Shown here: piece by piece, positions 48,021-56,576 of the stretch | Layout: each line of letters starts with the position of its first letter | Position numbering within the stretch: the first letter of the stretch is position 1 | NCBI RefSeq assembly: GCF_014201315.1 | Contig: NZ_JACHDY010000002.1 | Span: forward strand, 868,001 to 932,000 | Direction: 5' to 3' | Source: Edaphobacter lichenicola | GTDB taxonomy: Bacteria > Acidobacteriota > Terriglobia > Terriglobales > Acidobacteriaceae | DNA length: 64,000 nucleotides | Translations under genes and position numbers: made by a program | The notes under the pieces: generated by a model | What the model was told of the DNA's origin: nothing | The model's database searches: none | What the model saw: the letters and a program-made list of their open reading frames with translations, nothing else

Positions 48021-48413
48021 ATGGCAGATCTCAACGCTTTGAAACAGAAGTACGCCGGTGTCATTGAATCCCTGCAGAAGTTCGCCCCCTACGGAGCCAC
48101 CCTCGACGCAGTCGACCTCGACGGCGAGCAGCTCCACATCAAAGGTACCGTTCCCTCCAGAGTCATCCTCGAGCGCGTCTGGGACAACATCAAAAAAGCC
48201 GACCCCACCTACTCCGACCTCCACCACGAGATCGCCAACACCGGCGGCGACACCCAGGCCTACACCATCAAATCCGGCGACACCCTCGGCGCCATCAGCC
48301 AGCTCTTCTACGCCACCGCCAGCAAATATCCTCAGATCGCCCAGGCCAACAACATCGCCGACCCCAACAAGATCAACGTCGGCACCACCCTTCAACTCCC
48401 CGTCATCACCTAG
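48021..48413 (+). CDS. BON-LysM domain protein (Kbp/YgaU-like)
   Basis: A 130-residue protein with an N-terminal BON-type domain (about 1-70, LHIKGTVPSRVILERVWDNI) and a C-terminal LysM domain (YTIKSGDTLGAISQLFYATASKYPQIAQAN, about 78-128). In E. coli, Kbp of the same layout is a cytoplasmic potassium-binding protein; no signal peptide is seen here either. ATG follows AAGGAGAA. It shares orientation with the YidB-like gene. Confidence 0.9.
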   Translation: MADLNALKQKYAGVIESLQKFAPYGATLDAVDLDGEQLHIKGTVPSRVILERVWDNIKKADPTYSDLHHEIANTGGDTQAYTIKSGDTLGAISQLFYATASKYPQIAQANNIADPNKINVGTTLQLPVIT

Positions 48414-48430
48414 GGCGTTCGCACGCCTTT

Positions 48431-49408
48431 TTAGAGCTTCGCGTGGCCCTCCCGTTGGTCGGAATCATCTTCCTCGCGACCAACGGGAGCGGCCAACCGA
48501 AGGGGTATACCCATCACGAAGTGATCGCCGCGAACCGGGGTCCCCGCAAACAGGTCTTCGTTTACGGGGTGGCCACGCGCAGGGCGCACTTCCGCAGCCA
48601 GCCGCTGAAAGGCCCAAACTGCCAGCACCGTAAATACGATCGCCTGCATCACGTGTATCCAAAACCAATTGTCAGTTCCACCGTCCCGGACCAGTCGTCG
48701 CGCTACGTCATGCGGCCACACCAAGGTAAAAAATGTCAGGTCGCCGATCATGTGAGGCAGAATGGCCGGAAGCGTAGAGTTGGTGAGATACGCCGTCGTG
48801 CCAAACCCAACGCCCACAAGAAAGTACACCAGAAGCTTTGGCCACAAGATGCCATGAGCGAAGTGCGCGAAGGCAAACACGAGGGAGGAGACGGTGACCG
48901 CGACCCAACCGCGAACTTCCCGTTCGAGCGCGACCTGAAAATATCCGCGAAACCCAGCCTCCTCCATGAATGGCGCAACCAGGGACCCCATCAGAATCAT
49001 GAGGGCTACAGTCATGCGGGGATAACTCGACATATCTGGGAGTGCGTTGGGTGGCATCTTGACCAATCGGAACAGCACGATCCAGTATCCAGCCAACGCA
49101 ACCACAGATAGAACACCAGCAGCGAATGACCACAGGTAGGTCCGAGCAGATCTTCTGTTGGCCCGCAAGTAGTGGCGTCGCGCATCGGATGTGCTCCGTG
49201 GCCATCCCTTTCCACCCAGATAGCTCCACATCAGCCACAGCAGAAGGGTCATCACGGGAACGGACCAGGGAACCGCAGGGCTGCTCCGAAGATTGGTGAC
49301 GAGCAGGGCACTCCAGATACCGCCGGCGAGAATGGTGATAGCAAATGCCAATAGACCAAAGCCGATGATGCTTAAAGTGCGAGTAGCAAAAGAACTCTCT
49401 TTCTCCAT
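48431..49408 (-). CDS. CPBP-family intramembrane metalloprotease
   Basis: A 325-residue membrane protein with about eight helices and the CAAX-protease/bacteriocin-processing motifs: the EE pair with the arginine in FMEEAGFRGYFQ near 168, the first His in FAFAHFAHG near 203, and NSTLPAILPHMIGD near 250. Members cleave within or next to the membrane; the substrate is unknown. The last 30 or so residues (from about GDHFVMGIP) are encoded by a copy of a dispersed inverted repeat and differ in character from the rest, so the original C-terminus was probably shorter. Confidence 0.88.
   Translation of the reverse strand: MEKESSFATRTLSIIGFGLLAFAITILAGGIWSALLVTNLRSSPAVPWSVPVMTLLLWLMWSYLGGKGWPRSTSDARRHYLRANRRSARTYLWSFAAGVLSVVALAGYWIVLFRLVKMPPNALPDMSSYPRMTVALMILMGSLVAPFMEEAGFRGYFQVALEREVRGWVAVTVSSLVFAFAHFAHGILWPKLLVYFLVGVGFGTTAYLTNSTLPAILPHMIGDLTFFTLVWPHDVARRLVRDGGTDNWFWIHVMQAIVFTVLAVWAFQRLAAEVRPARGHPVNEDLFAGTPVRGDHFVMGIPLRLAAPVGREEDDSDQREGHAKL
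48433..48535. repeat. Dispersed inverted-repeat element, shorter copy
   Basis: CTCCCGTTGGTCG at 48449-48461 and CGACCAACGGGAG at 48477-48489 form a 13-bp perfect stem around a 15-base loop. Read on the minus strand, GCGATCACTTCGTGA, GGTATACC, the same stem, and GCGAAGC line up with the element at 55502-55587. The outer arms found there are absent here. It forms the end of the CPBP protease gene. Confidence 0.8.
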
Positions 49409-53372: not shown

Positions 53373-55466
53373 ATGACTACAAGCTCTGCTGTTGCTTCAC
53401 CCTCCCTTGAAACGAATTCAGCTCTCACCTATCCCACTGCCCGCAAGGTGGAGCAGACGGACGCTTACTTTGGCACTTCTGTCAACGATCCCTACCGGTG
53501 GATGGAGGATGTTGACTCCGCGGAGTTGAAGACCTGGGTGGACGCCGAGAACGAACTGACACAGAGCTATCTTGCGGAGGTTCCCTCTCGCGAGGCGATG
53601 CAGAAGCGGCTGATGGAGCTGATCAACTTCGAGCGATACACCGCTCCTGCGCGACGCGGCGCGCGATACTTCTACTCGCACAACAGCGGGTTGCAGAATC
53701 AGAACGTCCTCTACTGGCAGCAGGGGTTGGAGGGTGAACCCAAGGTACTGCTTGATCCGAACACCTTCTCGGCCGATGGCACGGTTGCGATCAGCGGCCT
53801 CAGCATCACCGACGATGGATCGCTGGCGGCTTACTCGATTGCGGACGCAGGCAGCGACTGGATGAAGTGGCATGTCCGCGATGTCACGACCGGCAAGGAT
53901 CTGCCCGATATTGTCGAGTGGTCGAAGTTCAGCGGGGCCGCGTGGCTCAAGGACGGCAGCGGCTTCTTCTACGAGGGCTACGACGCGCCAGAGGCCGAGG
54001 CGTTGAAGGCGGCGAACTACTTTCACAAGGTGTTCTTTCACAGGCTCGGCACGCCGCAGAGCGAAGACAAGCTGATCTTCGACCGTCCCGACGATAAGGA
54101 GTTGAACCTCGGGGCACAGGTGACCGACGACGGGCGATACCTGGTGCTCTATCAATCCAAGGGCACAAATCCGAACAACGAGATCGCCATTAAGGATCTC
54201 GAACAGCCTGAGTCGGCGATTCTGCGGCTGATCGATACCGCGGACGCGACCTACGCCCCGATCAACAACGATGGCACTCTCTTCTGGCTGCTCACCACGC
54301 TCGATGCCCCCAACGGCAAGGTTATCTCCATCGACCTGAATCATCCTGAGCGCGAACACTGGAAGACGGTGATTCCCGAGAGCAAGAACAAGCTGAGCGA
54401 TATCTCGATCATCGACAATACGTTCATCGCGAACTATCTCGCCGACGCGCAGAGCCTGATCGAACTTCGCAGTCTCGACGGGCAGTTGTTCGAGCGACTG
54501 AAGCTGCCGGCGATTGGCACGGCGTACGGCTTCGGCGGACTGCGCGAGGACACTGAGACCTTCTACCAGTTCACCAACTTTACGACGCCGGGTACGATCT
54601 ACCGGCTCGATATGAAGACGCGCCAATCAACCGTCTATCGACAGCCGAAGCTGTTGTTCGATCCGGTGCTCTATGAGACGACGCAGATCTTCTACAACAG
54701 CAAGGACGGCACGCGTGTGCCGATGTTTATCAGCCACAAGAAGGGCCTTGTGCTCGACGGGAGTGCGCCGACGCTGCTGTACGCGTATGGCGGATTCAAT
54801 GTGCCGCTGATGCCGGAGTTCTCTTCCGCGCATGTGATGTGGATGGAGATGGGCGGGGTCTACGCGCAGCCCAGCCTGCGCGGCGGTGGCGAGTATGGCG
54901 AGGCGTGGCACGAGGCGGGAACGCGGCTGAAGAAGCAGAACGTCTTCGACGACTTCATTGCCGCAGCGGAGTGGCTCGTCGCGAACAGGTACACCTCGGC
55001 GGCGAAGCTGGCCATCTCCGGCGGAAGCAACGGCGGATTGCTGGTTGCCGCATGCGAGTTGCAGCGGCCGGATCTGTTCGGCGCCGTGATCGCGCAGGTT
55101 GGCGTGATGGATATGTTGCGCTTCGACAAGTTCACGATTGGCTGGGCGTGGAAGGAGGAGTATGGATCTCCTTCAGAGAACGCGGAGGAGTTTGCTGCGA
55201 TCTACAAGTACTCTCCGCTGCACAATATCCGGCAGGGCGTGGCTTATCCGGCGACACTGATCACCACTGGCGATCATGATGATCGTGTTTACCCGGCGCA
55301 CAGCTTCAAGTACACGGCGGCCTTACAGGCCGCACAAGGCGGCACGAATCCGATCCTGATCCGTGTAGAGACACGGGCGGGACATGGGGCTGGAATGCCG
55401 CTCAGCAAGAGGATTGAGGCGACGGTGGATCAGTATGCCTTTCTGGTGCGGGAGCTGAACCGGTAG
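53373..55466 (+). CDS. Prolyl oligopeptidase (S9A)
   Basis: A 697-residue serine peptidase cutting after proline in short peptides. An N-terminal beta-propeller (about 70-420, starting after DPYRWMEDVDSAELKTWVDAEN) controls access to the C-terminal alpha/beta-hydrolase domain. The triad is Ser in ISGGSNGGLLVA near 555, Asp in DHDDRVYPAHSFKY near 640 and His in RAGHGAGMP near 673. There is no signal peptide. Its stop codon lies seven bases before a 191-bp inverted-repeat element. Confidence 0.95.
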   Translation: MTTSSAVASPSLETNSALTYPTARKVEQTDAYFGTSVNDPYRWMEDVDSAELKTWVDAENELTQSYLAEVPSREAMQKRLMELINFERYTAPARRGARYFYSHNSGLQNQNVLYWQQGLEGEPKVLLDPNTFSADGTVAISGLSITDDGSLAAYSIADAGSDWMKWHVRDVTTGKDLPDIVEWSKFSGAAWLKDGSGFFYEGYDAPEAEALKAANYFHKVFFHRLGTPQSEDKLIFDRPDDKELNLGAQVTDDGRYLVLYQSKGTNPNNEIAIKDLEQPESAILRLIDTADATYAPINNDGTLFWLLTTLDAPNGKVISIDLNHPEREHWKTVIPESKNKLSDISIIDNTFIANYLADAQSLIELRSLDGQLFERLKLPAIGTAYGFGGLREDTETFYQFTNFTTPGTIYRLDMKTRQSTVYRQPKLLFDPVLYETTQIFYNSKDGTRVPMFISHKKGLVLDGSAPTLLYAYGGFNVPLMPEFSSAHVMWMEMGGVYAQPSLRGGGEYGEAWHEAGTRLKKQNVFDDFIAAAEWLVANRYTSAAKLAISGGSNGGLLVAACELQRPDLFGAVIAQVGVMDMLRFDKFTIGWAWKEEYGSPSENAEEFAAIYKYSPLHNIRQGVAYPATLITTGDHDDRVYPAHSFKYTAALQAAQGGTNPILIRVETRAGHGAGMPLSKRIEATVDQYAFLVRELNR

Positions 55467-55472
55467 AAACTG

Positions 55473-55663
55473 TCCTGCCGGACGGGCGCCCTACGCAGGC
55501 AGCGGTCACTTCGTGACGTGTATACCGCTTCGCGTGATGCTCCCGTTGGTCGCTAGTCAGATTGTGCCGACCAACGGGAGGACCGAAGCATGTAGCCTCG
55601 CCCAGACAAGGTACACACGTCACGAAGTGACCGCCCCACGCGCAGTGGGCCCGTCCGGCAGGA
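55473..55663. repeat. 191-bp nested inverted-repeat element
   Basis: Three layers of complementary arms: outer TCCTGCCGGACGGGC (55473-55487) with GCCCGTCCGGCAGGA (55649-55663); middle, 25 bases beginning GCGGTCACTTCGTGACGTG (55502-55526), with 55610-55634, one mismatch; inner CTCCCGTTGGTCG (55540-55552) with CGACCAACGGGAG (55568-55580). It fills the space between two convergent genes and runs into the second, whose stop codon lies in the right middle arm. A shorter relative is at 48433-48535. No open frame for a transposase is inside, so a MITE- or REP-like mobile repeat is the best guess. Confidence 0.9.
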
Positions 55664-56558
55664 TGTTTTTGCGAAGGAAGACAGTCGCCTGGGGATTGTC
55701 GTTGTAGCGTTCGCATGGGACGTAGCCGCGTCTTCGATACAGAGCTATTGCAGTCTTCAGACCGTCATGGCTATCAAGATAGATCCAACGCAACCCTCTG
55801 CTTCGAGCGAACTCCTCCTGCGCGTCCAGCAGCTTGTCTGCGATGCGGTGCCCGCGGGCAGCAGGCTGCACGTAGAGCCGCTTGCACTCGCCGGCAAACG
55901 GAATGGTTGTCATCTTTCGCAGCAGGACGCAGCCAACGGGCTTGTCTTCCAGGTAGGCGAGCCACACACCAGAGGAGGGCTCGTCGATGATCTTCTGTAT
56001 TGCCGGGAGTGTATCGCGTACAACGACATCGATTGCATCGTAGTACTCCTTCAGCAGTTGAAGGACCTCGTCGCTGCACTTCGATACGCGAACGATTCGC
56101 AGAGAAGATTCTTTCGGCCGACTCAGAATGGAGCGAACCTTCGCGAGCGAATCAACCAGCACCTCGCGGTCGGAGGAATCAAGGTCAGCGAGCAGCTGTT
56201 GTATTTGTAACTCAGACTGTTCGTTGAGCCGCGCTACGGCTCTGTCTCCTGTTGGCGTGAGTGTAAGCAATCTCTCCCGGCCGTCCTGCTTTGAGGCGAT
56301 CTGGCGCACCAGCTTTCGCCGGGTGAGCAGGGCGAGGCTTCGACTGATGTATCCGGCGTCGAGGCCGAGCGTGTTGCGTAACGAGGATGCGGTCTGTCGT
56401 GGGTTGGCTCCGATCTCATACAGAATCCGAGCCTCCGTCAGCGAAAAGTCTCCGTCCAGATGCCGCCTTCGCAACAAGCCCAGCCGCGCGGTGTAGAAGC
56501 GGTTGAACTCTCGTACCGCAGAGACCTGATTCCGTTCTTCGAGGTTGCTGATAGCCAT
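55620..56558 (-). CDS. MarR-type HTH fused to GNAT acetyltransferase
   Basis: Two-domain protein of about 312 residues. Residues 10-145 form a MarR winged helix (EARILYEIGANPRQTASSL, LGLDAGYISRSLALLTRRKLV). Residues 155-305 are a GNAT acetyltransferase with the acetyl-CoA loop in LYVQPAARGHRIADKLLDAQE near 235 and ALYRRRGYVPCERY. The fusion type is widespread; the acetyl acceptor is unknown and it may regulate its own gene. The start is either TTG at 56576 or ATG at 56558. The last 14 or so residues (ILPDGPTARGAVTS) are encoded by the right arms of the inverted-repeat element. Confidence 0.9.
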   Translation of the reverse strand: MAISNLEERNQVSAVREFNRFYTARLGLLRRRHLDGDFSLTEARILYEIGANPRQTASSLRNTLGLDAGYISRSLALLTRRKLVRQIASKQDGRERLLTLTPTGDRAVARLNEQSELQIQQLLADLDSSDREVLVDSLAKVRSILSRPKESSLRIVRVSKCSDEVLQLLKEYYDAIDVVVRDTLPAIQKIIDEPSSGVWLAYLEDKPVGCVLLRKMTTIPFAGECKRLYVQPAARGHRIADKLLDAQEEFARSRGLRWIYLDSHDGLKTAIALYRRRGYVPCERYNDNPQATVFLRKNILPDGPTARGAVTS

Positions 56559-56576
56559 AGGGGAGTCTAACTTCAA

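Follow-up and report, generated by a model that had tools for sequence, protein, structure and literature searches.

How does a protein come to end inside a palindromic repeat, and what kind of element is the repeat itself? Both questions are raised by a 191-bp nested inverted repeat in the window, the whole stretch of 64,000 nt of Edaphobacter lichenicola DNA that we analysed (GCF_014201315.1, NZ_JACHDY010000002.1, 868,001-932,000, forward strand). A preliminary description had proposed that the repeat is a mobile element whose arms replace protein C-termini. The explanation we favor, with a probability of roughly 0.8 for the whole of it, is that it is a composite palindromic repeat of the soil bacterium Edaphobacter, REP/BIME-like and non-autonomous, and that the tail of the neighboring MarR-GNAT protein arose through a later deletion.

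Anatomy of the palindrome and its family

The features of the locus, with those of a second family member in the window, are listed below.

55473..55663, no strand: whole composite palindromic repeat, 191 bp; left half of type a1, right half of type a2
55465..55472, + strand: outermost conserved layer, consensus RAGAnnnTG, here AGAAACTG; overlaps the AG of the prolyl oligopeptidase TAG
55473..55487, + strand: outer terminal arm T (TCCTGCCGGACGGGC), left copy
55488..55500, + strand: left-arm mini-hairpin region; family form NNNN-T[AG]CGC-NNNN, imperfect in this copy (GCCC/AGGC)
55502..55526, + strand: middle arm, S module (GCGGTCACTTCGTGAC...), left copy
55540..55580, no strand: central hairpin H, CTCCCGTTGGTCG, 15-nt loop, CGACCAACGGGAG
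55610..55634, - strand: middle arm, S module, right copy; contains the TGA (55620-55622) that terminates the MarR-GNAT ORF
55649..55663, - strand: outer terminal arm T, right inverted copy; pairs with the left copy
53373..55466, + strand: prolyl oligopeptidase, convergent neighbor, with its own TAG stop
55620..56576, - strand: MarR-GNAT protein; the repeat encodes residues LPDGPTARGAVTS and the stop
48413..48562, no strand: second, degraded family member with modules B-H-h-s-x; begins at the stop of the upstream gene
48431..49408, - strand: Rce1-like (CPBP) protease ORF; approximately its last 45-55 codons read through the second element

The nested structure is real and far above chance. The RNA fold of the palindrome reached -123.2 kcal/mol against a mean of -73.1 (sd 4.65) for shuffled sequences (z -10.8), and the DNA fold gave z -11.2. 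The long arms (55473-55526 and 55610-55663, 54 nt each) are 85% complementary, and the inner arms (55540-55552 and 55568-55580) pair at 13/13 positions around the 15-nt loop. The concentric, near-perfect arms of 15, 25 and 13 bp that had been noted before are indeed present, the outer 15 bp being perfect and the middle 25 bp having one mismatch. The location between convergent genes also held, with a distance of 6 nt between the prolyl oligopeptidase TAG, which ends at 55466, and the arm.

The repeat is a mosaic whose two halves meet head to head, and each half consists of several small hairpins in a row. Across 820 kb of E. lichenicola sequence we found 36 clusters with at least two modules or a terminal arm, three of them single arms, and a single module order, T[X]{S|B}H-h{s|b}[x]t, ran through all of them, whole or partial; the order is mirrored after hairpin H, and modules are absent in many clusters. 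Halves come in at least three types (a1, a2 and b), each found on either side, and the two halves of an element may differ; some terminal arms are single. The mini-hairpin was perfect in 126 of 160 arms, compared with 31.6 in shuffled sequences, and had seven stem types; every arm therefore forms a hairpin unit of its own, like the units of REPs. Identity between the two arms of one element was weaker (16/49 vs. 8.9; 5 of 1000 shuffles as high), and the G-U vs. A-C asymmetry of the mini-hairpins (9 vs. 4) involved too few cases to use. By eye, the S module has a GTC inside its stem, and a GTAG/CGTC tag layout was not evident.

Beyond the 15-bp arm approximately eight outer bases recur (consensus RAGAnnnTG), and since they do so beside stop codons as well as elsewhere, we regard them as part of the element. 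At the locus under study the matching layer next to the GNAT gene is gone, removed by a 14-bp deletion. Complementarity between the outer flanks of individual loci, striking by eye, did not exceed permutation (204 paired positions vs. 195.1 permuted; 41 pairs, 342 of 2000 permutations as high), and the outer bases are therefore taken as a consensus layer only. A rarer outer end, AAGTGCGCCC, gave 10 pattern matches, nine of them family-like, against one for the control. In some copies (L028, L031 and L039 among them) an alternative outer end of this kind, AAGTGCGCCCTGCGC, with the same nine of 10 family-like matches, stands in place of the usual terminal arm, mostly on half type a1 by eye. A minimal version of 51 bp (L068, 1084-1134) comprises just a small hairpin and a pair of terminal arms, like the outer shell without inner modules.

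Copy number, genomic position and turnover

The repeat is a high-copy family of Edaphobacter, the genus to which named relatives also assign the DNA, with a few hundred copies. Its 15-bp terminal arm, with at most one mismatch, occurs in the E. lichenicola genome 148+151 times (0+2 for the reversed-pattern control), and the exact central hairpin core 68 times (control none). Of 235 first-look blastn candidates in this genome 40 were scored, and most of those were full length with 77-84% identity. The search for further arm copies, which the preliminary description had called for, was thus answered in the same genome and beyond it: among 40 relatives searched, the repeat was matched in 17 of 24 other Edaphobacter genomes, some of the seven without a match being incomplete assemblies, and in none of 16 genomes outside the genus. 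Match counts differ widely among the Edaphobacter genomes, two of which (G014 and G002) have 184 and 112 first-look candidates. Two others (G001 and G023; L076 and L077) have only two matches each, which probably reflect a single copy found on either strand, and this copy lies between the same two neighbor genes, terminase-like and HipA-like by eye. Literature searches, confined to open-licence papers, turned up no account of the family in Edaphobacter.

Many copies sit a few bases past stop codons. We surveyed the positions of 143 arms in approximately 1.9 Mb of three genomes, using genes from a home-made gene caller and counting orthologous copies of the three genomes separately, so that the position counts are not all independent. 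The 3′ end of a gene is faced by 88 of these arms and a gene start by 55. Among the 3′-facing arms, the distance from stop codon to arm was 1-20 nt in 59 (6-9 nt in 32), and the stop lay inside the element in four. Start-facing arms were at least 17 nt from the gene in 53 of 55 cases; in the remaining two the gene starts were called within the element and are probably miscalled. The 36 clusters comprised 14 in convergent, 13 in tandem and nine in divergent gaps, against 92, 319 and 111, respectively, of 522 intergenic gaps. Convergent gaps were therefore enriched for clusters (14/36 vs. 92/522), tandem gaps were not (13/36 vs. 319/522), and the divergent share was 9/36 vs. 111/522. The idea that the element donates a TAG stop found weak support (25 of 47 stops within 12 nt vs. 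469 of 1186 in the background, p 0.04; at 6-7 nt, 8 of 13, p 0.09), and we do not claim it.

Turnover was followed in syntenic segments of three genomes, the two relatives being 89 and 93% identical to the E. lichenicola genome. The C2 segment of E. lichenicola holds 25 elements. Among those whose site could be mapped, G041 had an element at 8 of 11 sites and G042 at 11 of 12. Comparison of 32 orthologous element pairs left 12 that were not typable; the 20 typed pairs comprised 13 of the same type, two cleanly inverted, three half-replaced and two scored as inverted plus half replaced, one of which is doubtful because its direct alignment is better (0.74 vs. 0.63 inverted). In the two clean inversions the inverted identity was 0.86-0.87, compared with 0.75-0.78 for the direct alignment. 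Counted by site, inversion or half replacement was seen at four of 12 typed sites, including the GNAT site, where the element types in the three genomes are a1-a2, a1-b and b-a1. Empty sites were found as well: at G42:87581 both relatives lack the element, and at G41:331857 G42 does. At the filled sites the outer layer directly follows the stop codon wherever the gene end is readable. Most mappable orthologous sites therefore retain an element, with halves inverted or replaced at some of them.

Protein ends encoded by the repeat

Rickettsia palindromic elements lie inside ORFs and contribute amino acids to unrelated proteins. The Edaphobacter cases differ from them in being C-terminal tails, that of the GNAT copy having arisen through a later deletion. 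The minus-strand MarR-GNAT ORF reads ...RKNI and then, within the repeat, LPDGPTARGAVTS and the stop. The repeat had been credited with approximately 14 residues; it supplies 13 whole residues, two bases of the preceding codon, and the TGA. The matches to the GNAT domain stop at residues 285-290 of the 318-residue protein.

The comparison with orthologues did not bear out the proposal that an insertion replaced the C-terminus. In two orthologues (L120 and L121, 88 and 94% identical) the element occupies this site and a native stop precedes it: their proteins end ...NIS and ...KIS, the stop is followed by AAACTG or AGGCTG, and then the arm begins. Aligned with these two, the window has a 14-nt gap between AACA and TCCTGCC, bounded by TC microhomology. 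The native stops and the gap indicate that the tail most simply derives, by parsimony, from a 14-bp deletion in the window lineage with the repeat already in place. The gap takes out the native GNAT stop, so that the reading frame continues into the repeat and stops at its TTCGTGA. The other six GNAT relatives, of which four were matched along only a part of the protein, are without an element at the site and have different ends, and thus all eight are without the repeat-encoded tail. It is scarcely conceivable that the tail belongs natively to the GNAT family and is merely overlapped by the repeat, a reading for which nothing speaks beyond the open frame: the ends of the eight relatives examined are different, in the two closest the stop comes directly ahead of the repeat, and the same tail is found on unrelated proteins.

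Three other proteins, an AraC regulator, an RND-like pump and a WYL regulator, finish with that tail, VLPDGxPARxAVTS. The AraC-type regulator ends ...VLPDGRPARAAVTS, and its convergent neighbor, an RND pump by eye, ends ...VLPDGPPARSAVTS. Both genes end inside one element (L016, G000:C3:398324-398513; L231 and L232). The two tails are in frame in two further genomes (97 and 90% DNA identity), three in all, and remain so in the one of the three in which the halves of the element differ. The WYL regulator of G042 ends ...VLPDGPPARRAVTS. An oxidoreductase (L074) ends ...PARAAITS and was not counted, because its element is without a left terminal arm.

How often does the repeat form gene ends? In 78 of 120 element ends the short-tail frame meets its first stop at base 44, and of the other two frames one has no stop along the entire element in 59 and the other in 46 of the 120. 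In that one frame of the three, the common early TGA would keep the tail at 13-14 residues. Of 249 distinct arms 18 are entered by a coding-like frame, nine of them in the short-tail frame. Seven of these nine look real and represent three loci (AraC/RND, WYL and GNAT); two common-frame rows, L020 and L076, were excluded as doubtful. The nine ORFs that enter in the other two frames appeared antisense or spurious by eye and were not counted. Eight called genes have their 3′ end in the element or in the 80-base padding, and the four that do not end at the common TGA were likewise left uncounted. The suggestion that the repeat repeatedly forms gene ends thus stands in so far as unrelated proteins share the tail, but few genes end at the repeat TGA (4 of 88 gene-facing arms). 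As for the second element of the window, G042 also carries one at this site and G041 none; in G014, which has the best relative of the Rce1-like protein, an element is at the same place, the frame is shifted and the protein end is different. Repeat-encoded C-termini are therefore real, if rare, and in the GNAT protein secondary to a deletion; the tail is probably a tolerated by-product.

Relation to known repeats and possible means of spread

BIMEs are high-copy, extragenic mosaics of motifs arranged in inverted doublets. The Edaphobacter repeat is like the BIMEs and REPs of enterobacteria and pseudomonads in being high-copy, extragenic, palindromic and mosaic, with inverted doublets, in its proximity to stop codons and in its preference for convergent genes, and terminal inverted repeats are also present. 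It differs from them in its longer concentric stack, in its five module types, and in showing neither a RAYT association at the examined loci nor, by eye, a GTAG tag. REPs are placed, in PMC3733652, less than 20 bp from the ends of convergent ORFs and at ORF ends, where they supply stop codons; a position just downstream of stops, between convergent or tandem genes, is common to them and to our repeat. In CGTC-tagged REPs, as the same source describes them, the unit is one stem of 8-9 bp that has a CCA-like tail and whose CGTC tag is left unpaired, and no dedicated transposase is reported for them (PMC3733652). These too are palindromic and mostly inverted dimers, and some units encode parts of proteins, but the CGTC-tag layout was not evident by eye in the Edaphobacter repeat. 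Together with the lack of a RAYT association at the examined loci, the tag layouts not being evident by eye led us to keep the repeat apart from the named REP subclasses. The TIR families of TIRYTs, reported from Acidobacteria among others, flank Y1 genes, and are similar to our repeat in phylum, in their long terminal inverted repeats and in the moderate abundance of some families (PMC3733652), whereas the Edaphobacter arms flank none of 31 examined Y1 loci. Rickettsia palindromic elements are also mentioned there, alongside REPs (PMC3733652). A REPIN, according to PMC3116915, is a replicative unit of two inverted REP arms and a spacer with a predicted hairpin. The Edaphobacter repeat shares the inverted arms with a spacer and differs in its several nested arms, in the exchange and inversion of halves at fixed sites, and in that no RAYT partner was found.

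Which enzyme, if any, moves the repeat? The linked REP-associated tyrosine transposase that the preliminary description had suggested looking for was sought and not found. A search for Y1_Tnp (E 0.001) gave 58 matches in the genus and Y1 genes in 20 of 25 genomes searched, which, with the inverted hairpin doublets, extragenic location and high copy number described for REPINs in PMC3116915, would suit a REPIN mobilised by a RAYT, a Y1 tyrosine transposase. Yet the flanks (up to approximately 1.5 kb) of 31 of the 58 loci contained no terminal arm and one weak single-module match, the three Y1 (RAYT-type) genes of the E. lichenicola genome have no full arm within approximately 3 kb, and the repeat-rich G014 and G002 have no Y1_Tnp match at E 0.001. 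Moreover, other inverted repeats of at least 14 nt were seen at 18 of these 31 loci, many of them on both sides of the gene, and we consider mobilisation by a RAYT quite improbable. Among loci L092-L119, several Edaphobacter Y1 genes have other inverted repeats at their flanks, such as GGGTGCCCCATTC or GGGGCTTTAGCCCC, apparently separate RAYT-linked families. Most MITEs are expected to have target duplications. The repeat had earlier been called MITE- or REP-like, and its anatomy and position agree with the REP/BIME side of this proposal, while direct repeats of at least 5 nt were found at 5 of 60 elements, against 3.6 permuted (largest permuted value 7), and thus gave no sign of a target-site duplication. 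Sharp inverted termini and the empty sites in relatives are what a MITE would show if it were a deletion derivative of a TIR DNA transposon and were moved by the enzyme of that transposon. However, the three widely spaced inverted arm pairs in approximately 1.9 Mb of three genomes enclose no gene that is transposase-like by eye in its first 60 residues, and terminal arms occur singly too, which together with the missing duplications makes such an origin rather unlikely.

An altogether different possibility is that the repeat is not truly mobile, and that a cis-acting RNA structure, a bidirectional terminator or 3′-end stabiliser, is maintained by selection. The position straight after many stop codons, the convergent bias, the compensatory changes within arms and the retention at most mapped orthologous sites would all suit such a structure. 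We nevertheless judge it unlikely, as the likeness among a few hundred copies and the empty sites point to spread, matches are confined to 17 of the 24 relatives (some incomplete) in very uneven numbers, and nine of the 36 clusters lie between divergent genes. Nor does the 191-bp copy have a strong T-tract: the terminator scan of the element gave only one weak match with five pairs (55652-55665; 0.3 expected in shuffles). Rfam covariance models had no match in the window at the gathering score, and the plasmid and phage collections had no match to the repeat. A bolder proposal combines some dedicated enzyme, which would use the hairpin and arms to flip or exchange half-elements at stop-adjacent sites, with a role of VLPDGxPARxAVTS as a functional C-terminal tag, for example in stability. 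The in-frame tail on both convergent AraC/RND genes in three genomes can be cited for the tag, but as a whole we hold this proposal very unlikely.

Under the REP/BIME-like explanation, copies would spread by recombination or in the form of folded single-stranded DNA, helped by some enzyme, and would persist best at the 3′ ends of genes because they would do least harm there. We infer the movement itself only from copy number and empty sites. Once transcribed, the hairpins would act as 3′-end structure, in termination or mRNA protection, and these roles, like any function of the tail, we also infer.

The GNAT locus offers a small-step case of how a repeat beside a stop codon may become a protein C-terminus, from a native stop followed by the repeat, through a 14-bp deletion, to a fused tail. 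The family is abundant, its match counts vary within a single genus, some of its sites are empty in close relatives, and halves are inverted at fixed sites. These properties would make it a usable system for studying how palindromic repeats spread and are kept up without an evident RAYT.
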